DNA of 64,000 nt from positions 1 to 64,000 of the forward strand of contig NZ_SNYQ01000009.1 in the NCBI RefSeq assembly GCF_004363295.1. The letters are read 5' to 3'. The notes below the pieces were generated by a model, which saw only the letters and a list, made by a program, of their open reading frames with translations, made no database searches and was not told the DNA's origin. The stretch comes from Mesocricetibacter intestinalis. Its GTDB lineage: Bacteria; Pseudomonadota; Gammaproteobacteria; Enterobacterales; Pasteurellaceae. Shown one piece after another: positions 6,954 to 44,905 of the stretch (position 1 is its first letter; the number at the start of each line of letters is the position of its first letter). The position numbers and the translations under genes were made by a program.

Positions 6954-6978
6954 ATTGAGTTACCGATAATAAGGGATA

Positions 6979-7007
6979 AAAAGTGCGGTCGTTTTTACCG
7001 CACTTTT
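6979..7007 (-). terminator. USS inverted pair between ilvD and ilvA
   Basis: Two facing copies of the uptake signal, AAAAGTGCGGT (6979-6989) and ACCGCACTTTT (6997-7007), make an 11-bp stem with a 7-nt loop ending in T4 on either strand. It sits inside the ilv operon, after ilvD and before ilvA on the minus strand, so it may act as a partial terminator as well as an uptake signal. Confidence 0.65.
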
Positions 7008-7020
7008 GGTTTAAGTCGAG

Positions 7021-8856
7021 CTAAAGTTTTGATTTGTCGCGTACCGCACCTTTGTCCGCAGAGGTCGCAAAATGACCGAAAACTTTCAGTGCAAAAGACA
7101 CTTCGCGGCGACGATCGACCGGTTGCCAGCCTTTGGCATCTTGCTGTGCGCGACGTTGCGCCAGTTCTTCGGGGGCTACGCATAATTCGATTTTTCGTTG
7201 CGGGATATCAATCGCGATGGTATCGCCGTCTTTAACCAAGCCTATGGTACCGCCTGCGGCAGCTTCCGGCGAACAATGGCCGATGGATAAACCTGAGGTA
7301 CCGCCGGAAAAACGGCCGTCGGTGAGCAGAGCGCAAGCTTTGCCCAGCCCCATGGATTTCAGATAGCTGGTCGGATACAGCATTTCCTGCATTCCCGGCC
7401 CGCCTTTCGGCCCTTCGTAACGTATTACCACCACATGACCGGCACGTACTTTACCGCCCAAAATGCCTTCCACCGCATCTTCCTGACTTTCGAATACAAT
7501 GGCTTCGCCGGTGAATTTTAGGATAGATTCGTCTACTCCGGCGGTTTTAACGATACAGCCGTTTTCCGCTAGGTTACCGCTTAACATCGCCAGTCCGCCG
7601 TCTTGGCTATAAGCGTGCGCCTTGTCGCGAATACAACCGTTTTGGCGATCGGTATCCAGGCTATCCCAGCGGCAATCCTGCGAGAAGGCTTCAGTGGTAC
7701 GAATACCGGCGGGACCGGCGCGGAAAAATTTATGTACCTCCTGATCTTGGCTGGTCATAATATCGTATTTTTCGATTTGTTCTGCCAGACTGATTCTCAG
7801 TAGGGTACGGGTTTCTCCATGCAATAAACCGGCCCGATTCAACTCGCCTAAAATAGCCATAATACCGCCGGCGCGGTGTACGTCTTCCATATGGTATTTT
7901 GCCGTATTTGGCGCAACTTTACTCAGGCAGGGTACATGACGCGAGAGGCGATCGATATCCGCCATGGTGAAATCTACCTCCGCTTCCTGAGCGGCGGCAA
8001 GTAGGTGCAGTACCGTATTGGTGGAGCCGCCCATGGCAATATCCAGACTCATCGCATTTTCAAAGGCCGCTTTAGTGGCGATGGAACGAGGTAAAACACT
8101 GGTATCTTCACGCTCATAATAGGCTTTGCAGAGTTCTACAATTTGTTTTCCCGCATCCAGAAACAGCTGTTTGCGATCCGCATGGGTGGCCAGACAGGAA
8201 CCGTTGCCGGGCAGGCTTAAGCCGAGCGCTTCCGTCAGGCAGTTCATTGAATTGGCGGTGAACATACCGGAGCAGGAACCGCAAGTCGGGCAGGCGGAGC
8301 GCTCGATATTTTCCACATCCGAATCGGAAACGTTTTTATCCGCGCTTTGTATCATGGCATCCACTAAATCCAGTTTGATAATTTTATCGGATAATTTGGT
8401 TTTGCCCGCTTCCATCGGGCCGCCGGAAACAAATACGGTAGGGATATTAAGGCGCAACGCCGCCATTAGCATTCCGGGGGTAATTTTGTCGCAGTTGGAA
8501 ATACATACCATGGCATCGGCACAATGGGCATTAACCATATATTCCACCGAGTCGGCGATTAGGTCGCGCGACGGCAGGGAGTACAGCATTCCACCGTGTC
8601 CCATGGCGATACCGTCATCTACCGCAATGGTGTTGAATTCTTTTGCTACCCCGCCGCAGGCTTCGATTTGGTCCGCCACCAGTTTGCCGATATTACGTAA
8701 ATGTACATGTCCCGGCACAAACTGGGTAAAGGAATTCACCACTGCGATAATAGGTTTGCCGAAATCCTGTTCTTTCATTCCCGTTGCCCGCCATAAGGCG
8801 CGGGCGCCTGCCATATTGCGACCCTGAGTACTGGTCGCCGAACGTAGTTTAGCCAT
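7021..8856 (-). CDS. ilvD: dihydroxy-acid dehydratase
   Basis: A 611-aa IlvD/Edd-family iron-sulfur enzyme catalysing the third common step of isoleucine and valine synthesis (dihydroxy acid to 2-oxo acid). Fe-S ligand motifs are visible: [12 protein letters not shown] (about residues 120-131) and [16 protein letters not shown] (about 190-205), with the C-terminal [15 protein letters not shown] active-site loop. Length equals that of E. coli IlvD (616). It follows ilvM with a 79-nt gap that contains a USS (8881-8890). In E. coli ilvE would lie between ilvM and ilvD; here it is absent. Confidence 0.98.
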
Positions 8857-8935
8857 AATCTCTCCAAGTTTTAAGCATCTAAAGTGCGGTCAATATTTCA
8901 ATTGTTTTTGTAAGGGTTAATTCTTCCGAGCTGTT

Positions 8936-9172
8936 TTAAGATTTTTCAGTTTTTACGTCCACCTGCTCCACATCATACAACTTCACCAGCTGATTGACTA
9001 ACAAATGCAAGGGACGTTGGCTGCTGACCTGCATATTCAAGTGGATCTTATTGTCTGCGGTTTGCATTTCCAGTGCGAGAAGGCCGAAGCCGCGGTGGCG
9101 TATTACGCGTAAAATCCGTTCCAGGGTTTCCGGACGATAATTGGCGCTGAGGCTGAGTAGATTGTTTTGCAT
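8936..9172 (-). CDS. ilvM: acetolactate synthase isozyme II small (regulatory) subunit
   Basis: A 78-aa single ACT domain protein (YRPETLERILRVIRHRGFGLLALEM), the size and type of IlvM, the small subunit that activates the isozyme II catalytic subunit. It starts 33 nt downstream of the ilvG stop. Short ALS small subunits of this type pair with IlvG rather than with IlvI or IlvB, which fits its position. Confidence 0.94.
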   Translation of the reverse strand: MQNNLLSLSANYRPETLERILRVIRHRGFGLLALEMQTADNKIHLNMQVSSQRPLHLLVNQLVKLYDVEQVDVKTEKS

Positions 9173-9205
9173 AGTTTTCTCCGAGGGATTAACGAGAGCC
9201 GAGGC

Positions 9206-10858
9206 TTAGGGCATTTCTTCAAGCATATCTGAATTACAGGCGCCGGGTGGTACCAAGGGCCAGACGTTTTCGTTTTCATGAATACAGACGTGTAGCAAAT
9301 AGGCTTCCCGGCTGCTAAGTAAACGCTCCAGCGCAGCATTGACTTCACCGCCGGATTCAATACGTTCGCCTTTAATACCGAAGGCGGATGCCAGGGTAAC
9401 GAAATCCGGATTATCATCCAAAATAGTGTTGCTGTGGCGGGCGCGGAAAAACAAGGATTGCCACTGCCGTACCATGCCCAAGCGCTGGTTATCGATAAGT
9501 ACTATTTTAAGCGGTGTACCGGCGCGTTTGATGGTTCCCAGCTCCTGAATATTCATCATAATCGAACCGTCGCCGGAAATCAGAATTACCTCGTCTTGCG
9601 GACGTGCCTTTTGTGCGCCTATCGCCGCCGGTAAACCGAATCCCATAGTTCCGAAGGCAGCGGAAGTAATGTAATTTTCCGGCGCGCTATGGCGCATATG
9701 CTGTGCCGACCACATCTGATGTTGGCCTACATCTGTTACTACAATGGCATTTTCTCCTTTCCGGCATGAGAGGTGGTTTAGCAGCCAGTGAGGATTAATA
9801 TTTTCCCCAGCGCGATTTTCGCCGTAACGGAAATCAAACTCCTGTTTCAGATTTTTTACCTTTTGCCGCCAAGGTTCAATTTCCAGTGCCAGGCTGAGGG
9901 CGCGAACGGCCTGAATTAAATCTCCCTGTAGCGAGATATCCGCCTTACGCAGTTTGTTCAGTTCGGCATTGTCGATATCCGCATGAATCACTTTGGCATG
10001 GGGAGCGAAGCTGTCCAGTTTACCGGTAACGCGATCATCAAAACGGGCGCCGAATACCAACAGCAGATCGGCTTCCTGCACGGCATAATTCGCCGCTTTG
10101 GTACCATGCATACCAATCATTCCCATATAATAAGGATTGTCGGCGGGAATACTGCCCAGTCCTTTTAAGGTAGAAACGCTCGGTATACGGGTTATATCAA
10201 GAAAACGGCGTAAGGCTTCGACCGCCTGCGCCATACCGACGCCGCCGCCCACATAAAGTACCGGGCGTTTTGCCGCTTTCAGCAGCGCTGCCGCCTGTTC
10301 AAGGGCGACAGGGTTTTGGGCATTAGGTTGCGAGGGAGAATAAAGAGGGACCGGTACAGCGGCGGAAGCAAATTGAATATCTTTCGGTATGTCGATCAAT
10401 ACCGGGCCGGGGCGGCCACTGCGGGCGATTTGGAAGGCTTTGGCAAATATATCCGGAAGTTCTTCTATGCTTTGTACGATAAAACTGTGTTTAGTACAGG
10501 CGAGGGAAAGACCCAATACATCCGCTTCCTGAAAGGCATCGGTACCTATTAATCCACTTGCCACCTGACCGGTAATCGCCACGATGGGAACGGAATCCAT
10601 TAAGGCATCGCCCAGGCCGGTGATAAGATTGGTTGCACCCGGTCCCGAGGTCGCAATACAGACGCCGGTTTTTCCGCTCGCCCGGGCATAACCTATGGCC
10701 GCCATAGCGGCGCCCTGTTCATTACGGCAGAGTAAGTGCTCGATGCCGCAATCGTAAAGCGCATCGTAAACCGGCATAATGGCGCCGCCGGGATAGCCGA
10801 AAACAATATCTACGCCCTGTGCTTTTAAGCATTCGGTAACAAGTTTTGCCCCATTCAT
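9206..10858 (-). CDS. ilvG: acetolactate synthase isozyme II large (catalytic) subunit
   Basis: A 550-aa thiamine-diphosphate enzyme that condenses pyruvate with pyruvate or 2-oxobutanoate. The catalytic glutamate lies in [18 protein letters not shown] (about residues 43-60), and the ThDP/Mg motif begins at [16 protein letters not shown] (about 428-443). The reading frame is intact, unlike the frameshifted ilvG of E. coli K-12. It is first in the operon after the ilvL leader and attenuator. The length matches intact IlvG (548 aa). Confidence 0.97.
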
Positions 10859-10895
10859 TTTTCCACCTGTAAGTTTGTTATTTTATGTTATGCCG

Positions 10896-10930
10896 AAAAA
10901 AGAAAACCCCCGCCGTAACGGCGAGGGTTT
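10896..10930 (-). terminator. ilv operon attenuator (Rho-independent terminator)
   Basis: On the minus strand AAACCCTCGCCG pairs with CGGCGGGGGTTT (one A·C mismatch) around a TTA loop, followed by a T-rich tail (CTTTTTTC). It lies between the ilvL stop and the ilvG start, the classical position for a translation-coupled attenuator. Confidence 0.9.
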
Positions 10931-10960
10931 GTATTTTCGGAACCTTAATTATTTATTCGA

Positions 10961-11047
10961 TCAGCCCGCATTTACAACCGCTCGCCCCGCCGTGATAATA
11001 ATCACCGCGAGGTTGATAATAATGCTCAGAGTCAGTTGTTTTACCAT
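10961..11047 (-). CDS. ilvL: ilv operon leader peptide
   Basis: A 28-codon reading frame starting ATG GTA AAA CAA CTG and ending TGA at 10961. It is packed with regulated amino acids: the runs Ile-Ile-Ile (codons 9-11) and Val-Ile-Ile-Ile (15-18), plus Val-Val near the end and three Leu. It lies directly upstream of the attenuator hairpin and of ilvG. By analogy with E. coli ilvL, ribosome stalling at these codons when Ile, Val or Leu tRNAs are uncharged would prevent the terminator from forming. It is too short for ordinary ORF calling. Confidence 0.9.
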   Translation of the reverse strand: MVKQLTLSIIINLAVIIITAGRAVVNAG

Positions 11048-11220
11048 AGGTTTGTAATTTAATGCGTTATGTTGTGTATGCTTATTATTGATAACACAAT
11101 TTATACGGAATTAAAATCATTTTTTACGTTTTATCTGCAAATCGGGAAAAAGAGCGGTCATTTTCAATGAGTTTTGTTATTATAGGCGCAATTTTTTGTT
11201 AATTGGATTTGAGAAATATT

Positions 11221-12039
11221 ATGCAACAACTGCCTTTCCGCGCCGTGGCTTCGGATATGGACGGAACATTATTGAACGCTGATCATGTGGTCGGCGAATT
11301 TACGGTGAAAACCTTACAAAAACTTGCCCGCAAAGGAGTAAATATTATTCTTGCCACCGGGCGGGGTTATACCGATGTGGCTTCTACCCTCGCTAAAATG
11401 GAAATTGAAAATGCTCTGATGATTACCTCAAACGGCGCTCAGGTGCATAACCGACAAGGTGAGTTACTGTACGCCAACCTATTGCCGGAAGCTATGGCGT
11501 TCGACATTATGCAGATGGATTTTGATCCGAAACGTGTCTGCCTGAATACTTATCAGGGGAACCATTGGTTTATCAATACGGATATTCCGCAGCTGCATAA
11601 ATATCATAAAGATTCCGGTTTTAGTTATCAGGTGGTGGATTTTTCCCGTCATCACGGTGAGCAAACGGAGAAAATATTTTTTATCGGCAAAACACCGCAA
11701 GATTTGGTGGAGTTGGAAGGTCGGTTATATGAAAAATTCGGCGATCGTACTTCCATTACCTATTCCACGCCGATTTGTCTGGAAGTAATGAATAAAAATG
11801 TTTCTAAAGCCACCGCACTTGCACATATTATCCGAGATTATGATTACGGTCTGGAAGATTGCATTGCCTTTGGGGACGGCATGAATGATGTGGGTATGCT
11901 GAGTGAAGTCGGTAAAGGCTGTATCATGGAAAATGCGGATCCTCGCTTATTGGCGGCCCTGCCGCAGTTGGAACGGATCGGATCGCATAAATGCGAATCT
12001 GTAGCCGCTTATTTGCGGGCGATATTCGGTATTTATTAA
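11221..12039 (+). CDS. yigL: Cof-type HAD phosphatase, YigL-like (pyridoxal phosphate phosphatase)
   Basis: A 272-aa haloacid-dehalogenase hydrolase of the Cof subfamily. The nucleophile motif is DMDGTLLNADH (about residues 13-23), motif II TSNGA, and motif IV IAFGDGMNDVGML. The sequence reads like E. coli YigL throughout (for example the C-terminal FGDGMND..ML...GKGCIM), which dephosphorylates PLP and sugar phosphates. A TTG at 11203 in frame would add six residues; the ATG at 11221 after GAGAAATATT is the better start. It precedes crcB by 13 nt, so the two are probably co-transcribed. Confidence 0.9.
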   Translation: MQQLPFRAVASDMDGTLLNADHVVGEFTVKTLQKLARKGVNIILATGRGYTDVASTLAKMEIENALMITSNGAQVHNRQGELLYANLLPEAMAFDIMQMDFDPKRVCLNTYQGNHWFINTDIPQLHKYHKDSGFSYQVVDFSRHHGEQTEKIFFIGKTPQDLVELEGRLYEKFGDRTSITYSTPICLEVMNKNVSKATALAHIIRDYDYGLEDCIAFGDGMNDVGMLSEVGKGCIMENADPRLLAALPQLERIGSHKCESVAAYLRAIFGIY

Positions 12040-12052
12040 TCGGGTTTAATAA

Positions 12053-12445
12053 ATGGGAAACACAGGCCTTTTTCATTCGGCCTTATTAATTAGTAGCGGC
12101 GCCGTATTGGGGGCGTTATTACGTTGGGGATTGGGTCTATGGCTTAATCCGCTGTTTAGCTGGTTTTCTTTCGGAACGCTGGCGGCAAATTATCTGGGCT
12201 GTTTTATTATCGGTATGCTGATGGCGTTGATTTGGCAGTTTCCTCAGCTCGATCCGCAATGGCGTTTGTTTCTGATCACCGGTTTTCTCGGCAGTCTTAC
12301 CACCTTTTCCGCATTGTCCGCCGAGGTAACGGAGTTTTTTTTCCGGCAGCGTTGGACGGAAGGATTCGGGGTTCTTTTCCTGCATTTGTGCGGCGGATTG
12401 TTGTTTACCTGGTTCGGCGCATTATGGGTACGTTGGCTGAGCTAA
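12053..12445 (+). CDS. crcB: fluoride ion channel CrcB/FluC
   Basis: A 130-aa four-helix membrane protein of the CrcB (Fluc) family that exports fluoride as a dual-topology dimer. Family signatures are GALLRWGLG near residue 20, [14 protein letters not shown] (about 39-52) and [15 protein letters not shown] (about 82-96), which lines the fluoride pore. No fluoride riboswitch is visible before it; the gene is closely spaced after yigL. Confidence 0.95.
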
Positions 12446-12503
12446 ACCGCATGGGCTGAGCTTGTTTTGTTACTGTGTTCAATCAATAAAATTAAGAGAT
12501 AAC

Positions 12504-12752
12504 ATGAAAGAATATAATAAATTACGTCTTGAATGGGATTGTCGGCGAGGAATGCTGGAGCTGGATAAAATCATTATGCCCTTTTATCAGCAGCATTTTG
12601 AGCGCTTGAATGCGGCGCAACAGGAAACCTTCGTGCGTCTACTGGCATGTTCCGACCTACAGTTGTTCTCATGGTTTTTTAACGGAGCTGAGGCGCCGGA
12701 TGCCGCATTACGACAAATGGTCGCCTATATTCAGAACAGCTTACAAAATTAA
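12504..12752 (+). CDS. sdhE: succinate dehydrogenase assembly factor SdhE (FAD assembly; CptB/YgfY family)
   Basis: An 82-aa YgfY/Sdh5-family protein that promotes covalent flavinylation of succinate dehydrogenase and fumarate reductase flavoproteins. The motif RLEWDCRRGMLELD (residues ~6-19) corresponds to the conserved RGxxE surface that contacts the flavoprotein. The upstream ATG at 12462 is in frame but lacks a ribosome site; 12504 follows AAGAGATAAC and gives the usual family length. It lies just upstream of the rpoE promoter. Confidence 0.9.
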   Translation: MKEYNKLRLEWDCRRGMLELDKIIMPFYQQHFERLNAAQQETFVRLLACSDLQLFSWFFNGAEAPDAALRQMVAYIQNSLQN

Positions 12753-12766
12753 TTTGATAATTTTTT

Positions 12767-12793
12767 GAACTTTCTCCGGGGATCAGGCTCTAA
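12767..12793 (+). promoter_or_regulatory. sigma-E promoter for rpoE-rseABC
   Basis: GAACTT at 12767-12772 and TCTAA at 12789-12793 are separated by 16 nt. This matches the sigma-E consensus (GGAACTT, 15-17 nt, TCTRA) and the autoregulated rpoE P2 promoter of E. coli, including the flanking CTCTAAC. It implies positive autoregulation of the operon. Confidence 0.75.
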
Positions 12794-12858
12794 CTAAGCA
12801 GAAATAAGCTTGCTTGCTGTCTTTAAAATATTAGGGCTTGTCATAAACAAGAGGTTAT

Positions 12859-13434
12859 ATGGCTGAACAGCTAACAGATCAGGCTTTGGTAGAAAGAGTA
12901 CAGCAGGGGGATAAAAAAGCCTTTAATTTGTTGGTTTCTCGTTATCAGAATAAAGTTGCCGGATTATTAACGCGTTATGTGCCACGCAACGATATTCCCG
13001 ATGTTGCGCAAGAATCCTTTATCAAAGCATACCGCTCCATGGATTCTTTCCGGGGCGACAGCGCTTTCTACACATGGCTTTACAGAATAGCGGTAAATAC
13101 CGCAAAAAATTACTTAACCGCACAGGGGCGACGTCCTCCCAATGAGGATATTTTAGCGGAAGATGCCGAAAGTTATGATGTAGGTACTCATTTGCGTGAT
13201 GTGGATACCCCTGAAAATGAAATGTTATCCGCAGAATTAAAACGAATTGTTTTTGAAACCATAGATGGTTTACAGGAAGAATTGAAAACCGCAATAACCT
13301 TACGGGAAATGGAAGGATTAAGTTACGAAGATATTGCCGAAATAATGAATTGCCCTGTGGGAACGGTACGTTCCCGCATTTTTCGGGCCAGAGAAATTAT
13401 CGAGAGCAAAATTCAGCCGCTAATTCAACGTTGA
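12859..13434 (+). CDS. rpoE: RNA polymerase sigma-E factor
   Basis: A 191-aa ECF sigma factor, identical in length to E. coli RpoE. Region 2 (FNLLVSRYQNKVAGLL...DVAQESFIKAYRSMDSFRGDSAFYTWLYRIAVNTAKNYL) and region 4 (LREMEGLSYEDIAEIMNCPVGTVRSRIFRARE) are both complete. It directs the envelope-stress regulon and is held inactive by RseA, encoded next. It heads an rpoE-rseA-rseB-rseC operon with a sigma-E promoter at 12767-12793. Confidence 0.98.
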   Translation: MAEQLTDQALVERVQQGDKKAFNLLVSRYQNKVAGLLTRYVPRNDIPDVAQESFIKAYRSMDSFRGDSAFYTWLYRIAVNTAKNYLTAQGRRPPNEDILAEDAESYDVGTHLRDVDTPENEMLSAELKRIVFETIDGLQEELKTAITLREMEGLSYEDIAEIMNCPVGTVRSRIFRAREIIESKIQPLIQR

Positions 13435-35020: not shown

Positions 35021-36724
35021 TTAATTTATGGTATCGGGTAAAATCACTTTGACTTCGGTACCGCCGCTTGCCCTGTTACTGATACAGAGACTGGCGTTCA
35101 GTTGCCGGCAGCGCTCTTGCATAATGTTCAGGCCGTAATGCCCGGCAGGTTCTTCCAGACTCGGAATACCTATGCCGTCATCTCTGACCAATAATTCGTT
35201 CTCGCCGTCTTCATTGACATGAGCAATAACTTCAATGCAGTTTGCCTCGGCATGTTTAATGGCATTCAGTACCGCTTCGCGGATAATTTGCAGTGCGTGT
35301 ATCAGTTGCTGCGGGTTAAATAGCTGAGAAGGTAGCGCACATTGTAAACATATCGGAATTTCCGTCTGATTACGTAAGGAATCAATCACTTGTTCCAAGG
35401 CTAATTGTAAATTAGCTTCCTGTACCGTCAAGCGGAAAGTGGTTAATAATTCACGCAGCTGAATATAACCGTTACTCAGCGCTTGCTCAAAATCTTGAAT
35501 AATCTGCAGACTTTTTTGTTTTGCATTTTTGTCTTCAAGATTCAAATTATGTTTTAACAGGGTGAGCTGAATGCGCAGGAAAGACAATACCTGAGCGAGC
35601 GAATCATGCAATTCGCGCGCGATAATCGAACGCTCTTCCATCAGTAACAGCTGTTGTTGTTGGCGCTGAGTCTGATGAAAATATAAGGCTCGACCTAACA
35701 ACTGGGCGATATTACTCATGGTGCGCGTATCCGGGCAGGGCAGTCCGGCCTGCCAGCGTAATACGCCGAGTTTATCGCTGCCGATGCTGATGTTTTGCTC
35801 TTGCCAGCTCAGCTTCTCCGCTTCTGCGCCTAAACGGATATTCCAATGTTCCGCCTGGTCGATAATAATTTCGATTACACGCAGATGCTCCGTGGCCATC
35901 ACATGATGCAGAATTTTTTGCAACAGCGCACGGTTGATATCAGTTACGCTTAATTGCTGAGAACAATGATAAAGAATGCTGAGGGCGCGGTTGGTTTGAT
36001 TCAGCTTCTGGGTTTTTTCGTTGACCTTCTGCTCCAGACCGGTATAAAACTTAAACAGCTCCGCGGACATATGGGTAAAGGCTTTGGCCAATGTTCCCAG
36101 CTCATTGTTATTGGTCGTATCCAATTGGATATGGTTAAACTGGCGCATTTGCATCTGCGTACTGGCCTGCACCAGCTGGTGCAGCGGATTCACTACTTTT
36201 CTGCGGGTATACCAGATAACATAGGATACCATTGCCACAATTAACAGCATGGAAAATAGAGTAACCATTACTACCAAGGTCAGTTTTTTCTCGGCGAAGT
36301 TTTGCAGAATATAAACGAAGTTATCCACCTGGGTTACATAGCTGCCTACTTCTTTCCGATAGGCGGCCAGATTGTTCTGGCGCGCATAGGCTTCCATCTT
36401 TCCCCAGCGCCGGATTACGTTATGATAGGCCTGTTTCAGTTCTTGCGGGGCAAAACGCTGACGGGAAATATTCAACAGCGCATTGGAATGCAGGGACAGC
36501 CGGTATTGCGACAGACTCATATCCACCTTTTGCGGCTCATGCTCCATCATATAAATCAGTCGGTATGCCTGCATACGCAGGGAACCGGAAACATTGATCA
36601 GCTCCGCATCGGATTTATTACTTGCCATAATCGCCAGACTGAGAGCCGTGATTATGCCGGAAAAAACAATAATCAGAAACAGATAATGGGCGATACGGGT
36701 TGAAACGGAATGTGTAACCTTCAC
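35021..36724 (-). CDS. narQ: nitrate/nitrite sensor histidine kinase NarQ
   Basis: A 567-aa membrane sensor kinase. Two transmembrane helices (about residues 11-33 and 146-168) flank a periplasmic sensor with the nitrate-binding P-box NVSGSLRMQAYRL (about 44-56). A HAMP linker and a cysteine-poor central GAF-like region follow, then the NarX/NarQ-type H-box ERSIIARELHDSLAQVLSFL and the HATPase segment ending DDGIGIP. It would phosphorylate the response regulator NarP (not in this window) to control nap and dms genes. Its location next to the dms-nap island is consistent with that job. Length equals Haemophilus NarQ as I recall it. Confidence 0.94.
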   Translation of the reverse strand: MKVTHSVSTRIAHYLFLIIVFSGIITALSLAIMASNKSDAELINVSGSLRMQAYRLIYMMEHEPQKVDMSLSQYRLSLHSNALLNISRQRFAPQELKQAYHNVIRRWGKMEAYARQNNLAAYRKEVGSYVTQVDNFVYILQNFAEKKLTLVVMVTLFSMLLIVAMVSYVIWYTRRKVVNPLHQLVQASTQMQMRQFNHIQLDTTNNNELGTLAKAFTHMSAELFKFYTGLEQKVNEKTQKLNQTNRALSILYHCSQQLSVTDINRALLQKILHHVMATEHLRVIEIIIDQAEHWNIRLGAEAEKLSWQEQNISIGSDKLGVLRWQAGLPCPDTRTMSNIAQLLGRALYFHQTQRQQQQLLLMEERSIIARELHDSLAQVLSFLRIQLTLLKHNLNLEDKNAKQKSLQIIQDFEQALSNGYIQLRELLTTFRLTVQEANLQLALEQVIDSLRNQTEIPICLQCALPSQLFNPQQLIHALQIIREAVLNAIKHAEANCIEVIAHVNEDGENELLVRDDGIGIPSLEEPAGHYGLNIMQERCRQLNASLCISNRASGGTEVKVILPDTIN

Positions 36725-36870: not shown

Positions 36871-36884
36871 TTGATTTCAATCAT
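36871..36884 (+). promoter_or_regulatory. FNR box upstream of the first dmsA-like gene
   Basis: TTGATTTCAATCAT matches the FNR consensus TTGATnnnnATCAA at 9 of 10 specified bases. Its centre is 31 bp from a possible -10 (TGATAG, 36906-36911), the spacing of a class II FNR-activated promoter (site at -41.5). Confidence 0.75.
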
Positions 36885-37000: not shown

Positions 37001-39436
37001 ATGGGTGAGTCTGTTTTCAATCCGACATTGAATCGAAGAAAATTTTTGCAAAGCGCATCACTGGGGGCGGCGGTTGCGGCCGCGGACATCAGTTTACCCT
37101 TTAATGCGATGGCGGCGCCGAAGGAAACGGAAGGCGTAGCGCAAGTAAAGGAGAATAAAAAGGTCTGGGCGGTATGTTCGGTAAACTGCGGCAGTCGTTG
37201 CCCGCTGCGCCTACATGTTCGGAATAATGAAGTGTACCGGGTGGAAACGGATAATATCGGCGACGATCAATATGGTAATCATCAGATCCGCGCCTGCCTG
37301 CGCGGGCGAGCTATGCGACGCAGAATGAATCACCCCGATCGGCTTAATTATCCGATGAAGCGAATCGGCAAACGCGGGGAGGGTAAATTTAAGCGTATCA
37401 GCTGGGACGAAGCCTTGGATACTATTGCGGATAACTTAAAGCGTATCGTCAGAGATTATGGTAATGAAGCGGTTTATTTAAATTATTGTTCCGGTATTGC
37501 GGCCGGAAGCATGACGCGTTCTTCCGCGGTTAATTCCTGCCTTAGCCGTTTAATGAATTGTTACGGCGGATTTTTAAATCAGTACGGAACTTACAGTCGG
37601 GCGCAAATTGCTCGGGCCATGCCCTTTACTTACGGGTCCAATATGGGCAATAGCACCTCCGATATCGCCAATTCAAAGCTGGTGGTTTATTTCGGTAATA
37701 ATCCGGCGGAAACACGAATGAGCGGCGCGGGGATTACTTATCATCTGGAGCAGGCCAGAGAACGTTCTCGGGCGAAAATGATTGTGATTGATCCTCGTTA
37801 TACCGATACGGCGGCAGGGCGCGAAGATGAGTGGATTCCTATCCGACCGGGGACGGACGCCGCATTGGTTTCCGCCATGGCTTATGTGATGATCAATGAA
37901 AACTTGGTGGATCAGGCTTTTCTGGATAAATATTGTATCGGTTATGATGAAAAAACCTTGCCCCCTTCGGCGCCGAAGAATGCCCATTATAAGGCCTATA
38001 TTTTAGGGCAGGGAGAGGACGGCATCGCCAAAACCCCGGCATGGGCGGCGCAGATTACCGCTATTCCGGAACAAACCATTATCCGTCTGGCTAGAGAAAT
38101 CGCTTCAGCCAAACCCTGCTGTATTACCCAGGGTTGGGGGATTCAGCGCCAGTCCAACGGCGAGTTGGCCTGTCGTGCGGTGGCGATGCTGGCAATTTTA
38201 ACCGGTAATGTGGGGATTAACGGCGGGAATTCCGGCGCCAGGGAAAGCACTTTTACCGCACCTATTAAACCGCTGCCGATATTGGATAACCCGGTGAAAA
38301 CCAAAATTCCGGTTTTTCTGTGGACCGATGCCATTGAACGGGGTACGGAAATGACCGCACTTAAAGACGGGGTTCAGGGTAAGGATAAGCTGGAGGTACC
38401 GATCAAGTTCCTCTGGAATTATGCGGGCAATACCATTACCAATCAGCATTCGGACATTAATAGAACCCACCGCATTTTACAGGACGAAAGTAAGTGCGAA
38501 ATGATCGTGGTAATCGAAAACTTTATGACCGATTCGGCTAAATATGCGGATATTTTGCTACCGGATCTGATGACCACGGAACAAGAGGATATTACGCCGA
38601 ATCATTATGCCGGTAATATGGGCTATCTGATTTTCTCGCAAGCTGCGACCACACCGAAGTTTGAGCGTCGTTCCATTTATGATATTACGAGCGATATCGC
38701 CGCACGATTGGGGCGGGATATTTACGATAAATTTACCGAAGGGCGTACTCAGCAGGAATGGCTGCAATATCTTTATGCCCAAACTCGGGAGAAAAATCCT
38801 TTTATGCCGGAATACGAGGAAGTGAAAAAGGCCGGCATCTATAAAATGAAAGATCCCCAAGGGCATTATGTGGCCTATAAGGAATTCCGCGAGGATCCGG
38901 AAAATCACCCGCTGAAAACCCCCTCCGGAAAAATCGAGATTTATTCGGAACGCTTAGCTCAAATTGCCGCCAGCTGGGAGCTGGATCAGCAATCGGTTGT
39001 TCATCCGCTGCCCATTTATCATGCCGGCTTTAACGGCGTTGATGATCCGAAACGCGACAGCTATCCTTTTCAGCTTATCGGCTTCCACCATAAAGGCCGT
39101 ACTCATTCCAGTTATGCAAATATCGACTGGTTGCAAGCGGCCTGTCCTCAGGAACTGTGGATGAATCCCATTGATGCCCAAAATTATCATCTGAAGGACG
39201 GCGATATGGTACGGGTATTTAATGAAATCGGCGAAACCCGCCTGCCGGTTAAGGTTACCCCGCGTATTATGCCGGGGGTACTGGCCATGGGGCAGGGCGC
39301 CTGGCATAAGGCGAATATGTGGGGGGATCGGGTAGATCACGCCGGCTCCATTAATGTGCTTACCACTCAGCGCCCGTCGCCGCTGGCAAAGGGGAATCCT
39401 CAGCATTCCAATTTGGTTCAGGTGGAAAAATTATAG
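37001..39436 (+). CDS. DMSO-reductase-family molybdoenzyme catalytic subunit, YnfE/YnfF-like
   Basis: An 811-aa Mo-bisPGD oxidoreductase with a twin-arginine signal (NRRKFLQSASLGAAVAAADI, residues 11-30). The N-terminal [4Fe-4S] motif CSVNCGSRC begins at Cys59, and the Mo region MTRSSAVN (Ser174/175) is unlike the MTxSWPP of true DmsA. Downstream segments (SAKYADILLPDLMTTEQEDI, TPSGKIEIYSERLAQIA) resemble E. coli YnfE/YnfF, linked to selenate and S/N-oxide reduction. It has its own FNR-type promoter and terminator and no B or C subunit of its own, so it probably uses the dmsBC products encoded after dmsA. Confidence 0.88.
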   Translation: MGESVFNPTLNRRKFLQSASLGAAVAAADISLPFNAMAAPKETEGVAQVKENKKVWAVCSVNCGSRCPLRLHVRNNEVYRVETDNIGDDQYGNHQIRACLRGRAMRRRMNHPDRLNYPMKRIGKRGEGKFKRISWDEALDTIADNLKRIVRDYGNEAVYLNYCSGIAAGSMTRSSAVNSCLSRLMNCYGGFLNQYGTYSRAQIARAMPFTYGSNMGNSTSDIANSKLVVYFGNNPAETRMSGAGITYHLEQARERSRAKMIVIDPRYTDTAAGREDEWIPIRPGTDAALVSAMAYVMINENLVDQAFLDKYCIGYDEKTLPPSAPKNAHYKAYILGQGEDGIAKTPAWAAQITAIPEQTIIRLAREIASAKPCCITQGWGIQRQSNGELACRAVAMLAILTGNVGINGGNSGARESTFTAPIKPLPILDNPVKTKIPVFLWTDAIERGTEMTALKDGVQGKDKLEVPIKFLWNYAGNTITNQHSDINRTHRILQDESKCEMIVVIENFMTDSAKYADILLPDLMTTEQEDITPNHYAGNMGYLIFSQAATTPKFERRSIYDITSDIAARLGRDIYDKFTEGRTQQEWLQYLYAQTREKNPFMPEYEEVKKAGIYKMKDPQGHYVAYKEFREDPENHPLKTPSGKIEIYSERLAQIAASWELDQQSVVHPLPIYHAGFNGVDDPKRDSYPFQLIGFHHKGRTHSSYANIDWLQAACPQELWMNPIDAQNYHLKDGDMVRVFNEIGETRLPVKVTPRIMPGVLAMGQGAWHKANMWGDRVDHAGSINVLTTQRPSPLAKGNPQHSNLVQVEKL

Positions 39437-39455
39437 TGGCACGGAGGTTGCCTAT

Positions 39456-39483
39456 AAAAGCGGTGAGGTATCACCGCTTTTTC
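39456..39483 (+). terminator. terminator after the YnfE/F-like gene
   Basis: AAAAGCGGTGA (39456-39466) pairs with TCACCGCTTTT (39471-39481) around GGTA, followed by T residues. It separates this gene from the downstream dmsA unit. Confidence 0.88.
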
Positions 39484-39685
39484 TTATGCTTGCTCGGCGC
39501 TAGTAATAAAAAATAAGAAAAAAATCACCGCACTTTTAGTTTATAGCGAGGGCGGCTAAATCTCCTCGCTCCTCAAGCTAACAACGGAATTAAAGGGGCT
39601 TGTTTGCTTTTTCGACAGATAAGGGTGATTTTTCGAACCATCTTCCTTTATGTGATGTAAATTATTCTCATTACCATTTAACTAT

Positions 39686-39699
39686 TTGATTTAAATCGC
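39686..39699 (+). promoter_or_regulatory. upstream FNR-like box of dmsA
   Basis: TTGATTTAAATCGC matches 8 of 10 specified FNR bases. It is 20 bp (about two helical turns) upstream of a better FNR box, so the two sites face the same side of the DNA. Confidence 0.5.
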
Positions 39700-39705
39700 A
39701 TTTTA

Positions 39706-39719
39706 TTGATTTGTATCAT
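39706..39719 (+). promoter_or_regulatory. FNR box of dmsA
   Basis: TTGATTTGTATCAT matches 9 of 10 specified FNR bases. A plausible -10 (CTTAAT, 39742-39747) lies about 32 bp from its centre, close to the class II arrangement. Confidence 0.7.
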
Positions 39720-39788
39720 GGACATTCTCTTCGATTTAGCGCTTAATTAGGGCCGCTCAATTTACTTTCACAGAGCATGGGGAAAGAT

Positions 39789-42218
39789 ATGGATAAATCA
39801 ATTTTTAATCCGAATTTACATAGAAGAAAATTTTTAAAAGCCACTTCAGTGGGTGCGGCGGTTGCGGCGGCGGATATCAGCCTGCCTTTTAACGCCATGG
39901 CGGCGGAAACAATGCCGGCTGTATCCGAAAGCGACGAAAAAGTGGTGTGGAGCGCCTGTACGGTAAACTGCGGCAGCCGCTGTCCGTTAAGAATGCACGT
40001 TAAGGATAATAAGATCCTGTATGTGGAAACGGACAATACCGGCAGCGATACTTATAATCTCGATCATCAGGTTCGCGCCTGCTTGCGCGGACGTTCTATG
40101 CGACGCCGAGTGTATAACCCGGATCGCCTCAAATACCCGATGAAACGGGTGGGTAAACGCGGCGAAGGTAAATTTAAACGCATCAGCTGGGATGAGGCCT
40201 TAAGCGAAATCGCCGAATCTCTGCGTAAAAATATCGCCGCATACGGTAATGAAAGTATTTATCTGAATTACGGTACAGGTACGTTGGGCGGCACCATGAC
40301 CAAATCCTGGCCGCCGGCATCTACCATGTTGGCTCGCTTTATGAACTGCATCGGCGGTTATTTGAATCACTACGGCGACTACAGTACCGCACAGATTGCC
40401 GTGGGTCTGGATTATACCTATGGCGGCGGCTGGGCGATGGGTAACGGCATGGCGGATATTCAGAATACCAAATTAGTGGTGTTATTCGGTAATAATCCGG
40501 CGGAAACCCGCATGAGCGGCGGCGGTCTGACCTATTGTATCGAGCAGGCCAGAGAACGTTCCAATGCCAGAATGATTATTATCGATCCGCGTTATACCGA
40601 TACAGGTGCGGGACGGGAAGACGAATGGATTCCGATTCGTCCGGGTACGGATGCGGCTCTTTGTTCCGCTCTGGCCTATGTGCTAATTACCGAAAATATG
40701 GTGGATCAGCCTTTCTTAGATAAATACTGTGTGGGTTACGACGAGAAAACCCTGCCGGCCGATGCGCCGAAAAACGGCCATTATAAAGCCTATATTTTAG
40801 GTCAGGGCGAAGACGGTATTGCGAAAACACCGGAATGGGCGGAAAAAATCACGGGGATTCCGCAAGAGCGTATTATTAAACTGGCGCGTGAAATCGGCCA
40901 GACCAAACCGGTATATATTTCCCAGGGCTGGGGACCGCAGCGTCGCAGTAACGGCGAACTGATTTCTCGCGCCATTGCCATGCTGCCGATTTTAACCGGC
41001 AACGTAGGTATTAGCGGCGGTAACACAGGTGCGCGCGAAAGTACCTATTCGGTACCTTTTGTACGTATGCCGACCCTGAGTAACCCGGTAAAAGCCAGTA
41101 TCCCGATGTTTATGTGGACGGATGCGATTTTCCGCGCCCATGAAATGACGGCGACAACGGACGGTATCCGCGGGGTAGAACGTTTAACTTCACCAATTAA
41201 GGTGATCTGGAATTACGCCAGTAACTGTCTGATTAATCAACATTCCGATATTAATCGTACGCACCAGATTTTACAGGACGAAACACAGTGCGAAATGATC
41301 ATCACCATTGATAACCATATGACGCCGACGGCAAAATACAGCGATATTCTCCTGCCGGATTGTACCGCTTCGGAACAGATGGACTTCTGTCTTGATGCTT
41401 TTGTCGCCAATATGGCCTATGTGATTTTCGCCGATCAGGTCATCAAACCTTCTTTCGAATGCCGCAATATCTACGATATGTTAACGGCGTTGGCAGAGAA
41501 AATGGGGGTTAAACAGCAGTTTACCGAAGGACGCACTCAGGAAGAATGGTTGCGCCATATTTATGCTCAATCTCGCGAGAAATTACCGGAATTACCGAGT
41601 TTTGAGGAATTCAGACAGCAGGGCATCTTCAAAAAAGTCAGCCCGAAAGGTTTCTATATCGCCTATAAGGATTTCCGTGATAATCCTGAGGCTAATCCGC
41701 TGGATACGCCGACGGGTAAAATCGAAATCTATTCTTCCCGACTGGCGGAAATTGCCAAAACCTGGGATCTGAAACAAGATGAGGTTATCCATCCTCTGCC
41801 GGTACATGCGGACAGCTTCGAGCATTATGGCGATCCGCTGATGGAAAAATATCCGTTGCAGTTGACCGGTTTCCATTACAAGGCCCGCACCCATTCCACC
41901 TATGGTAATGTGGACGTATTAAAAGCGGCCAACCCGCAGGAACTCTGGATCAACCCGGTAGATGCACGAGCGCGCGGCATTGAAGACGGCGATCTTATCC
42001 GTATCTTTAACGATCGCGGCGAAGTACGGATTCATGCCAAGGTAACCCCGCGTATTATTCCGAATGTGATTGCTTTGGGCGAAGGGGCTTGGCATGCACC
42101 GGATAATAATCAGGTGGATCATGCCGGCTGCATCAACGTCCTTACCACCCAGCGTCCTTCACCGCTGGCGAAGGGTAACCCGCAGCATTCGAATTTAGTT
42201 CAGGTTGAAAAAGTTTAA
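39789..42218 (+). CDS. dmsA: anaerobic dimethyl sulfoxide reductase catalytic subunit A
   Basis: An 809-aa Mo-bisPGD enzyme that reduces DMSO and related S- and N-oxides. The twin-arginine signal (HRRKFLKATSVGAAVAAADI, residues 11-30) is followed by the [4Fe-4S] motif starting CTVNCGSRC (Cys57) and the Mo-ligand Ser173 in GTMTKSWPPAST, as in E. coli DmsA. DILLPDCTASEQMDF is also DmsA-like. An ATG at 39777 is in frame; 39789 was chosen because MDKSIFNPNL aligns with the MGESVFNPTL start of the preceding paralogue. It heads dmsABC and stops 10 nt before dmsB. Confidence 0.96.
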   Translation: MDKSIFNPNLHRRKFLKATSVGAAVAAADISLPFNAMAAETMPAVSESDEKVVWSACTVNCGSRCPLRMHVKDNKILYVETDNTGSDTYNLDHQVRACLRGRSMRRRVYNPDRLKYPMKRVGKRGEGKFKRISWDEALSEIAESLRKNIAAYGNESIYLNYGTGTLGGTMTKSWPPASTMLARFMNCIGGYLNHYGDYSTAQIAVGLDYTYGGGWAMGNGMADIQNTKLVVLFGNNPAETRMSGGGLTYCIEQARERSNARMIIIDPRYTDTGAGREDEWIPIRPGTDAALCSALAYVLITENMVDQPFLDKYCVGYDEKTLPADAPKNGHYKAYILGQGEDGIAKTPEWAEKITGIPQERIIKLAREIGQTKPVYISQGWGPQRRSNGELISRAIAMLPILTGNVGISGGNTGARESTYSVPFVRMPTLSNPVKASIPMFMWTDAIFRAHEMTATTDGIRGVERLTSPIKVIWNYASNCLINQHSDINRTHQILQDETQCEMIITIDNHMTPTAKYSDILLPDCTASEQMDFCLDAFVANMAYVIFADQVIKPSFECRNIYDMLTALAEKMGVKQQFTEGRTQEEWLRHIYAQSREKLPELPSFEEFRQQGIFKKVSPKGFYIAYKDFRDNPEANPLDTPTGKIEIYSSRLAEIAKTWDLKQDEVIHPLPVHADSFEHYGDPLMEKYPLQLTGFHYKARTHSTYGNVDVLKAANPQELWINPVDARARGIEDGDLIRIFNDRGEVRIHAKVTPRIIPNVIALGEGAWHAPDNNQVDHAGCINVLTTQRPSPLAKGNPQHSNLVQVEKV

Positions 42219-42228
42219 GGAGTAAGGG

Positions 42229-42849
42229 ATGAGCGAACAATACGGCTTTTATTTTGACTCGGAACGTTGCACCGGCTGTAAGACCTGTGAACTGGCCTGT
42301 AAAGATTATAAAGATCTGGGTACCGATGTGAATTTCCGGCGGATTTACGAATATGCGGGAGGCGAATGGCAACAGCAGGCGAACGGCTGCTGGAATCAGA
42401 ACGTCTTCGCCTATTACCTGTCTATTTCCTGCAACCATTGCGATAATCCGGCTTGTACCAAGGTTTGTCCGACCGGTGCCATGCACAAGAACGAAGACGG
42501 TTTCGTTATTGTTAATGAAGATACCTGTATCGGCTGTCGCTATTGCCATATGGCCTGTCCGTACGATGCACCGCAATATGATGCGGCAAAAGGACATATG
42601 ACCAAATGCGACGGTTGCTACTCACGCGTAAAAGCGGGGCAAAAACCGATTTGTGTGGAGGCCTGCCCGCTGCGTGCGTTGGACTTCGCTCCAATCGAAG
42701 AGCTGCGCGCCAAATATGGTGATATTGCTGCAGTAGCGCCGCTGCCGCCGCAGGAATATACCCAACCAAATCTGGTGGTGAAACCGAATAAAAACAGCCG
42801 CCCGAGCGGAGATACCAGCGGTTTCTTAGCAAATCCGAGAGAGGTATAA
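42229..42849 (+). CDS. dmsB: DMSO reductase iron-sulfur subunit B
   Basis: A 206-aa ferredoxin-like electron-transfer subunit with four [4Fe-4S] cysteine groups: CTGCKTCELACKDYKDL (about residues 16-32), CNHCDNPACTKVCPTGAM, CIGCRYCHMACPYDAP and CDGCYSRVKAGQKPICVEACPLRAL. It carries electrons from DmsC to DmsA. Shine-Dalgarno AAGGAGTAAGGG precedes the start. It is coupled to dmsC (1-nt gap after the stop) and could also serve the YnfE/F-like subunit encoded upstream. Confidence 0.97.
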   Translation: MSEQYGFYFDSERCTGCKTCELACKDYKDLGTDVNFRRIYEYAGGEWQQQANGCWNQNVFAYYLSISCNHCDNPACTKVCPTGAMHKNEDGFVIVNEDTCIGCRYCHMACPYDAPQYDAAKGHMTKCDGCYSRVKAGQKPICVEACPLRALDFAPIEELRAKYGDIAAVAPLPPQEYTQPNLVVKPNKNSRPSGDTSGFLANPREV

Positions 42850-42850
42850 G

Positions 42851-43675
42851 ATGAACGGATTACATGAATTGCCTTTAGTGGTATTTACGGTGCTAGCCCA
42901 ATCGGCGGTCGGCGCATTTTTACTGATGAGCCTGGTATTATGGCGCAGCGAAAGTGCGGAGCAAGCTCGCTCCGTACATCGCGGAATGTTTTTGCTACTG
43001 GCTTTATTGGCCATCGGTTTTATCGCCTCGGTAATGCACCTTGGTTCGCCGTTACGTGCCTTTAACTCACTGAACCGGGTGGGTGAATCCATGCTTAGTA
43101 ATGAGATTGCCAGCGGCGCCTTGTTTTTTGCCGTTGCCGGTCTTTACTGGCTGTTGGCGATTTTAAATAAAATGCCGCCGTTGCTCGGCAAAGTCTGGTT
43201 GCTTATAGGCGCGGTTTGCGGTTTGGTATTTATGGTGATGATGCAGGGCGTCTATCGTATCGATACGGTACCGACCTGGGACAACGCCTTTACCGCCTGG
43301 AATTTTTATCTGACCCTGCTTATCGGCGGTAGCGCCCTCGGCTATGCCCTGTTTTGCCGCGGACAGGCGGGTTATGCCTGGGTACCTAAGCTATTAAGCT
43401 TAGGAATTCTGCTGGCGGCGATTGTGGCGGTCTATCAAGGCTTCCGTTTAAGCGGGATTCATTCTTCCGTGCAGCAGGCGGCGGCACTGGTTCCGGATTT
43501 CGCCGTACTGACTGCCCTGCGCCTGATTTGTCTGGCTTTAGGCGCCTTGTTGTTGCGTCGCACTAATTTAGCCTTATCCCTTTTGGCGGTAGTATTGGTG
43601 TTGGGCGGCGAAATGTTAGGCAGAACCCTGTTCTATGCGTTACATATGACGGTTGGAACCGCAGTGGCCGGTTAA
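42851..43675 (+). CDS. dmsC: DMSO reductase membrane anchor subunit C
   Basis: A 274-aa polytopic membrane protein of the DmsC family with about eight hydrophobic helices. It anchors DmsAB in the inner membrane and oxidises menaquinol. It includes the family stretch MHLGSPLRAFNSLNRVGESMLSNE (about residues 57-80), whose His is near the quinol site in E. coli DmsC, and TWDNAFTAWNFY. It is followed by a USS inverted pair and dmsD. Confidence 0.95.
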   Translation: MNGLHELPLVVFTVLAQSAVGAFLLMSLVLWRSESAEQARSVHRGMFLLLALLAIGFIASVMHLGSPLRAFNSLNRVGESMLSNEIASGALFFAVAGLYWLLAILNKMPPLLGKVWLLIGAVCGLVFMVMMQGVYRIDTVPTWDNAFTAWNFYLTLLIGGSALGYALFCRGQAGYAWVPKLLSLGILLAAIVAVYQGFRLSGIHSSVQQAAALVPDFAVLTALRLICLALGALLLRRTNLALSLLAVVLVLGGEMLGRTLFYALHMTVGTAVAG

Positions 43676-43748: not shown

Positions 43749-44348
43749 ATGAACGAGGAGCTACTTGCTCGTATTTCCGCTGCCGCCCGCTTTTTGGGCG
43801 CATTGTTTTATTATCCGCCGGAAAGCCCGCAGTTGCGCCCGTTACTGGATTTCCTGCAACAGGAGCAATGGCCGCAGAATTGGGGCGAAGTGAAAGATGC
43901 CGAGCTGCTCAAAGCAAAATTTAGGGTTACGGAAAATCTCGACGAACAGTATCAACGCTTGTTTATCGGCCCCAACTCATTGGCGGCGCCGCCTTGGGGT
44001 TCGGTCTACCTTGATCCGGAGTCGGTGATTTTCGGTGATTCTCTGTTGGAACTGCGTGCCTTTATGCAGCGCCATCAAATCCGTTTTCAGTACGATGAAC
44101 GGGAACCTGAGGATCATATCGGACTCATGCTGATGTTCGCCGCCTATTTAGCGGAGAACCATTCCCAATTACTGGCGGAATTTCTGGGTGGGCACTTATT
44201 GACCTGGTCGGAACGTTATCTGCAATTATTGGCGCAGCAGCAGGACTGCCCGTTTTATCAGGGATTGGCATTATTAACGGAACAGACGCTGAGCGATTGG
44301 CGTCGCCGTCTGAACATCGAAGTGGAAAAAGTACGACTGTACCGTTAG
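43749..44348 (+). CDS. dmsD: TorD/DmsD-family Tat proofreading chaperone
   Basis: A 199-aa all-helical TorD/DmsD-family chaperone that binds the twin-arginine leader of DmsA while cofactors are inserted. Family signatures are the N-terminal ARFLGALFYYPPES, the central EQYQRLFIGPNSLAAPPWGSVYLDPE (about residues 65-90) and EPEDHIGLMLMFAAYL. It likely serves both DMSO-reductase-type subunits, because their leader peptides are almost identical. The next ferredoxin gene begins 32 nt downstream. Confidence 0.93.
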   Translation: MNEELLARISAAARFLGALFYYPPESPQLRPLLDFLQQEQWPQNWGEVKDAELLKAKFRVTENLDEQYQRLFIGPNSLAAPPWGSVYLDPESVIFGDSLLELRAFMQRHQIRFQYDEREPEDHIGLMLMFAAYLAENHSQLLAEFLGGHLLTWSERYLQLLAQQQDCPFYQGLALLTEQTLSDWRRRLNIEVEKVRLYR

Positions 44349-44380: not shown

Positions 44381-44905
44381 ATGCAAAAAAACGAAGGTTA
44401 TTACAACGCCTATCTCTCCCATCACCGTATTTCCCGGCGCGGTTTATTGCGCGGTGTCTTCGGGGCGGCGGAAAAATCCTGCCTTCCCGTCGAGCGGCGT
44501 AAGGTTGCGCGCCCGCCCTTTGCCTGTGCGGAACATTTGTTTATGGCCGCTTGTAACGGCTGCGGCGAATGTAGCGCCGTTTGTCCCTACGGATTAATTT
44601 TTATTCGCGACGGCAAAGCGGTGCTTGAACCGGATTTTTCTCCTTGCGACCATTGCGGTAAATGTGCGCAAGTATGTCGCGAACGGGCGCTGCATCCGGC
44701 CTTCAGCGCAGATACTCAATTACGCCCCCGTTTCGGGCCGGATTGCTTGCAGCGGCGAGGGCAGCATTGCGATGCTTGCCTTCAGTCTTGTCCGCAACAG
44801 GCGATTTCCCCGCAGCTGGAGGTGAATAATAACAGTTGCAACGGTTGCGGCGAATGTAAATTCCATTGTTTTATGCAGGCAATCAGCCTGCATTTGCCCG
44901 ATTGA
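44381..44905 (+). CDS. NapF-like polyferredoxin of the dms cluster
   Basis: A 174-aa cytoplasmic iron-sulfur protein. An N-terminal twin-arginine-like RISRRGLLRGVFG (about residues 16-28) precedes four cysteine clusters: CNGCGECSAVCPYG, CDHCGKCAQVCRE, CDACLQSCPQQ (a three-cysteine variant as in NapF) and CNGCGECKFHC. It is a paralogue of NapF encoded about 200 bp downstream, but sits with dmsD. NapF is thought to help mature or reduce NapA, so a similar helper role for the DMSO-reductase enzymes is inferred. ATG 44381 after GGTGAAGAAT was preferred over a start inside dmsD at 44297. Confidence 0.85.
   Translation: MQKNEGYYNAYLSHHRISRRGLLRGVFGAAEKSCLPVERRKVARPPFACAEHLFMAACNGCGECSAVCPYGLIFIRDGKAVLEPDFSPCDHCGKCAQVCRERALHPAFSADTQLRPRFGPDCLQRRGQHCDACLQSCPQQAISPQLEVNNNSCNGCGECKFHCFMQAISLHLPD

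Follow-up and report, generated by a model that had tools for sequence, protein, structure and literature searches.

Respiratory molybdoenzymes are usually regarded as fixed A-B-C complexes, and the use of one B-C-D set by two A subunits is already known from ynfEFGH-dmsD, the selenate/tellurate reductase locus of Escherichia coli and Salmonella. The 2003 work of Lubitz and Weiner is reportedly the key study of the E. coli subunits. In both, one DmsD matures DmsA, YnfE and YnfF and reads the hydrophobic core of their leaders, the H-region being the epitope (PMC5203670, PMC3316669, PMC10609526). Selenate reduction by Salmonella requires YnfE (PMC5203670); the substrates of the closest DmsABC enzymes include methionine sulfoxide, nicotinamide N-oxide, and pyrimidine N-oxide besides DMSO (PMC12096835).

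Here, we analyzed a stretch of 64,000 nucleotides (the window) belonging to the 2.2-Mb genome of the Pasteurellaceae member Mesocricetibacter intestinalis, for which an original prediction had proposed two tandem DMSO-reductase-type A genes of different type sharing one B-C-D set. The tandem was confirmed by NCBIfam ranking and phylogeny. Both A ORFs are intact and, like all parts of the locus, lie on the forward strand. The first (37001-39436) encodes a YnfE-type molybdopterin catalytic subunit of 811 aa with Tat leader, FS0 cysteines, and Mo-ligand Ser174, as assigned by NCBIfam, Pfam, tree, and alignment. The second (39789-42218) encodes a DmsA-type catalytic subunit of 809 aa with Mo-ligand Ser173 in MTKSWPP (NCBIfam, tree, alignment); an in-frame ATG at 39777 would give 813 aa, and the shorter form is favoured because of its better Shine-Dalgarno sequence and its alignment with the YnfE-type leader. 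The interval between the two A genes, 39436-39789, is free of B, C or D genes. As predicted, the first A gene is without an electron-transfer or anchor gene of its own, and all further parts of the complex were found by profile searches 3′ of the DmsA-type gene: DmsB (4x[4Fe-4S] electron-transfer subunit; 42229-42849; TIGR02951 above cut-off), DmsC (membrane anchor/quinol oxidase subunit; 42851-43675; PF04976, E=4.5e-97), and DmsD (Tat proofreading chaperone; 43749-44348; NF008632 above cut-off). A NapF-like ferredoxin gene follows (44381-44905; TIGR00402 above cut-off), called dmsE in H. influenzae nomenclature (dmsDE are described in PMC8340005), for which the ATG at 44381 is a more likely start than the listed TTG at 44297. 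The order is thus dmsA-dmsB-dmsC-dmsD-napF-like, with the nap nitrate reductase genes starting farther on.

With ynfEFGH-dmsD the locus has in common the tandem A pair, the single B-C set, dmsD at the end, and a YnfE-type first gene. It differs in that its second A subunit is DmsA-type and not YnfF-type, that a promoter and a terminator lie between the A genes, and that a napF-like gene follows dmsD. YnfE and YnfF of E. coli had been taken to be of the same kind; the alignment revealed them as distinct subtypes with different Mo loops as well, so that the contrast to the window pair is one of degree only. From the second A gene onwards, gene order (B-C-D and the napF-like gene, dmsE) and FNR-type promoter resemble E. 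coli dmsABC and H. influenzae dmsABCDE, which lack the additional YnfE-type A gene upstream. The mixed tandem is not unique to this genome and occurs in other Pasteurellaceae and in enterics: a heterogeneous pair with a downstream set is present in Aggregatibacter kilianii and Pasteurella testudinis, and the order ynfE-dmsA-B-C-D-napF in Rahnella, Ewingella, Serratia silvae, S. microhaemolytica, and others. In P. testudinis, dmsD-napF differs by its position upstream in reverse orientation. The distance between the tandem A genes varies among these relatives from ~30 to 340 nt. In genome G045 it is only ~28 nt and the second FNR box is missing, which suggests co-transcription.

The 64 kb contain only three FNR-like boxes with at most one mismatch, two of which lie in front of the A genes. 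The box TTGATTTCAATCAT (36871-36884; 9/10 consensus match) lies ~130 nt 5′ of the ynfE-type start, and the box at 39706 belongs to a pair 5′ of dmsA, TTGATTTAAATCGC and TTGATTTGTATCAT (boxes at 39686 and 39706; 39686-39719). Matches with two mismatches number 46 in the window vs 37.5 expected by chance, and because this is near chance only the placement of the ≤1-mismatch boxes is informative. Of the terminator-like hairpins in the region, the strongest (39456-39481; 11-pair stem) lies directly 3′ of the ynfE-type gene and is a predicted intrinsic terminator ending this unit. The FNR-type promoter and terminator that had been ascribed to the first A gene were therefore both recovered as motifs. 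The regions upstream of the A genes were also searched for a conserved AATTATTC..ATTA element, but nothing of general occurrence emerged. A NarQ/NarX-like sensor kinase is encoded in divergent orientation to the ynfE-type gene, at 35021-36724 on the reverse strand, with a P-box-like NVSGSLRMQAYRL; control of the region by nitrate is possible.

Both A proteins exceed the 777.7-bit cut-off of TIGR02166, the DmsA/YnfE subfamily of the DMSO reductase superfamily (1298.6 bits for the first, 1326.0 for the second). Among the NCBIfam models, the first ranks YnfE (1504 bits) before YnfF (1409) and DmsA (1254), although its best score is below the NF041885 (YnfE) cut-off of 1675 bits; judged by these scores, it is a YnfE-type relative outside the strict NCBIfam YnfE family. 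The second ranks DmsA (1480 bits) before YnfE (1337), its best score likewise being below the cut-off (NF011566, 1600 bits), and falls into the DmsA group in the tree. The mature parts are 63.6% identical. In the alignment, both proteins retain the Mo-ligand serine and all four FS0 cysteines, and the predicted difference at this serine is seen as well: the loop of the first protein reads MTRS-SAVN, is one residue shorter and lacks WPP, that of the second reads MTKSWPPA. Compared with E. coli DmsA, the second protein has the Mo-ligand serine in an xTxSWPP loop, the Tat leader, and the FS0 cysteines. No DmsA was found among PDB sequence matches. The different Mo loops make different acceptor preferences of the two subunits plausible. 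Phylogenetic analysis of 36 A proteins placed the first window protein with the YnfE of Pasteurellaceae and enterics and the second with DmsA; YnfE and YnfF form a clade excluding DmsA (100/100), within which the YnfE types are together (92/91) and YnfF is their sister. A larger tree of 85 A proteins agrees. By these trees, the split between YnfE and DmsA is older than that between Pasteurellaceae and Enterobacteriaceae.

To see with which A types the B-C module occurs, 140 Pasteurellaceae genomes were surveyed, yielding 12 YnfE-type genes in 11 genomes. The ynfE-dmsA tandems account for six of these genes (this genome, G016, G019 (A. kilianii), G038 (P. testudinis), G045, and G080), and ynfE-only operons with B-C for five (G001, G031, G036 (Chelonobacter oris), a second G038 locus, and G059). 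G010 has ynfE alone, with dmsA-B-C elsewhere in the genome and one dmsB. The majority of Pasteurellaceae loci are dmsA-only, and the B-C module is thus found with DmsA only, YnfE only, or both. In the B+C tree, ynfE-only G001 is nested with the congeneric dmsA-only G004 and G006, and ynfE-only G038b groups with dmsA-only G039/G040 (both 100/100). A single clade of ynfE-only B-C, or of all ynf-bearing B-C, was rejected (p 1.6e-5 and 1.8e-45). By this phylogeny, B-C follows the species and not the A type, and the residues of DmsB give no signature of the A subunit it belongs with (5 ynfE-only vs 46 dmsA-only, p=0.46). Strict congruence of the ynfE and B-C trees was rejected as well (AU p=7.7e-7 and 0.0017), with agreement of the main groups; pure vertical inheritance of ynfE with B-C can therefore be dismissed in detail, and loss, recombination, and transfer probably all contributed. 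Record L201, titled Chryseobacterium sp. 18061, has an enteric ynfE in a locus that looks identical to that of Citrobacter sp. 18056 (L198); probably the title is wrong or the assembly mixed.

A natural exchange of the catalytic body can be seen between G001 (ynfE) and G006 (dmsA), which belong to the same genus (g2) and are syntenic over 11 kb. DNA identity is 86-100% upstream and up to codon 18 of the A gene, drops to ~65% in the A body, and reaches 98% from the last 13 codons into and through dmsB. What changed type is thus the catalytic body, within a retained frame of promoter, leader start, C-terminus of A, B, and C. This could be a replacement or result from two different collapses of an ancestral tandem; with either origin, one promoter/leader/B-C frame has carried either body. 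In P. testudinis (L046), ynfE (10721-13144) and dmsA (8129-10540) share 84-96% DNA identity in most windows of ~codons 225-390 vs 55-75% outside, which reads as recent gene conversion, a direct sign of recombination between tandem copies.

The Tat leader of the window's YnfE-type protein, MGESVFNPTLNRRKFLQSASLGAAVAAADISLPFNAMAA (37001-37117), has 18 consecutive residues in common with the DmsA leader, a run that spans the hydrophobic core of both. The two leaders are 80% identical vs 63.6% in the mature parts. Codons at identical residues agree at 0.54 in the leader vs 0.52 in the mature part, so there is no sign of recent gene conversion; older conversion or selection by one DmsD may have caused the likeness. 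From genome to genome, the leaders of A proteins differ widely. Within tandem genomes, leader pairing beats permutation (p=0.0011; six Pasteurellaceae tandems, exploratory) with a tiny effect in the mature part, but G016 and G019 are exceptions in which the leaders do not co-vary, which counts against the explanation proposed below. As the window leaders nearly coincide in the stretch bound by DmsD, they fit one chaperone, and the simplest reading would be that the resident DmsD keeps them alike.

We infer that the window holds a two-unit locus whose A subunits alternate on one DmsBC/DmsD and which originated by catalytic-subunit exchange; to this explanation as a whole we assign a probability of about 0.68. 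The ynfE-type gene would be monocistronic, and the second unit would comprise the dmsA-dmsB-dmsC operon and then dmsD and the napF-like gene. Both A subunits would be matured by one DmsD and exported via Tat, and one or the other would then dock on a common DmsB-DmsC electron-transfer/anchor module, through which electrons from menaquinol would reach it. By means of the two FNR-controlled promoters, the cell may adjust the proportions of two respiratory reductases that presumably differ in acceptor preference and substrates. As origin we propose that A subunits were exchanged while leader/promoter and B-C module stayed fixed, with an ancestral ynfE-dmsA tandem as the most likely start, followed by recurrent loss of one copy or inter-copy recombination. 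The openly readable literature searched contained neither a biochemical demonstration of YnfE-DmsBC pairing nor substrate data for the Pasteurellaceae YnfE type, and it does not describe the mixed ynfE-dmsA tandem or the cassette-like exchange.

More tentatively, with a chance that we put slightly below even, DmsBC(D) of Enterobacterales might be a general docking module, with DmsA, YnfE, and YnfF types as exchangeable cassettes, Tat leader and C-terminal codons as recombination ends, and tandems as an intermediate state serving two acceptors via one module. In the natural cases the catalytic body alone was exchanged, with no change of promoter, leader, electron-transfer subunit, or anchor subunit; acceptor specificity, chaperone recognition, and A-B docking thereby become separable by experiment. 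For annotation as ynfE (selenate reductase) or dmsA (DMSO reductase), operon context alone is insufficient.

That the A genes are adjacent and equal in length and domain order could be explained by an ordinary duplication of dmsA in the recent past with subsequent drift. This has next to no chance of being correct, since a constraint uniting the two window A proteins was rejected (AU p=2.5e-38), the first gene grouping with enteric YnfE and the second with DmsA; the recent in-paralogy of DmsA on which the original prediction might have failed is thereby ruled out. A more serious question is whether the YnfE-type protein is a relic or dead end, still produced but lacking a productive partner or no longer catalytic. 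Such decay occurs in relatives, where 4 of 12 Pasteurellaceae ynfE genes have a stop or have lost the Mo-ligand serine. One in-frame stop each (TAG, TAA) interrupts ynfE in G080 (L053), which has an intact dmsA, and in G059 (L049), where ynfE is the only A gene and the dmsC match is split; alanine replaces the serine in G016 (L050 ynfE 10143-12557) and G038b (L047 ynfE 6371-8773), with loops ILRA and ITRA, and these proteins would be either inactive or unusual in Mo coordination. A second catalytic subunit is thus dispensable in some lineages, and orthologues diverge by ~24% for ynfE vs ~17% for dmsA. The window ynfE, however, is a full-length gene that retains Mo ligand and FS0 cysteines and has its own FNR box and terminator, and its product is 76% identical to orthologues in other genera; G001 and G031, moreover, have no DmsA/YnfE-class subunit besides the YnfE type with its B-C-D. 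We consider a relic improbable.

Alternation on the adjacent DmsBC also has to be weighed against a second supply of partners. A third A subunit of the genome is encoded at 251015-253423 of contig C1, together with a separate B-C-D set. It is a true YnfF (1751 bits vs the 1650-bit cut-off; its Mo loop, ITNSNVP, matches that of E. coli YnfF), the only one seen among the 140 Pasteurellaceae genomes, and its B subunit is 84% identical to the DmsB of the window. The YnfE-type subunit might pair with this set, or with both, and not specifically with the adjacent DmsBC. The C1 B-C is, however, itself of Pasteurellaceae DmsA-locus descent, sister to dmsA-only G068/G043 (100/100), and expression may not coincide, as no FNR box lies in the 180 nt upstream of the C1 locus and its gene context is one of LysR and sulfur-amino-acid genes. 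A second set is absent from most other tandem genomes: one DmsB each was found in the Pasteurellaceae tandem genomes G045, G016, G019, and G080, and a single close DmsB in 10/10 Rahnella/Ewingella/Serratia-type tandem genomes checked. Enteric loci with ynfE and dmsD only, or ynfE alone, and no B-C (n=21; Enterobacter, Lelliottia, Cedecea, others) are accompanied by a dmsB elsewhere in the genome in 21/21 cases; as dmsB is common in enterics (a second dmsB in 19/21 control genomes), this figure is consistent with sharing, not discriminating. Pairing with the C1 set is in our view unlikely. The claim that two A subunits share one B-C-D is accordingly backed by the single-DmsB tandem genomes and weakened by the second set here, where sharing is likely, not forced; exchange of catalytic subunits on DmsBC stands in so far as A types were swapped or lost on one B-C in relatives.

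The C1 locus (L041:2913-12571; G000:C1, ~245.9-255.6 kb) lies behind a LysR regulator, two PLP enzymes of Cys/Met metabolism, and an NhaC-like transporter, a setting that suggests sulfur-amino-acid sulfoxides, e.g. S-methylcysteine sulfoxide, as acceptor and carbon source. Elsewhere in the genome, two formate-dehydrogenase-like genes are located 11 kb apart (G000:C7:68076-69356 and G000:C7:55840-57120), and just one of them contains an in-frame TGA, which probably encodes selenocysteine. A further TGA-containing gene is present at G000:C5:40075-41529.
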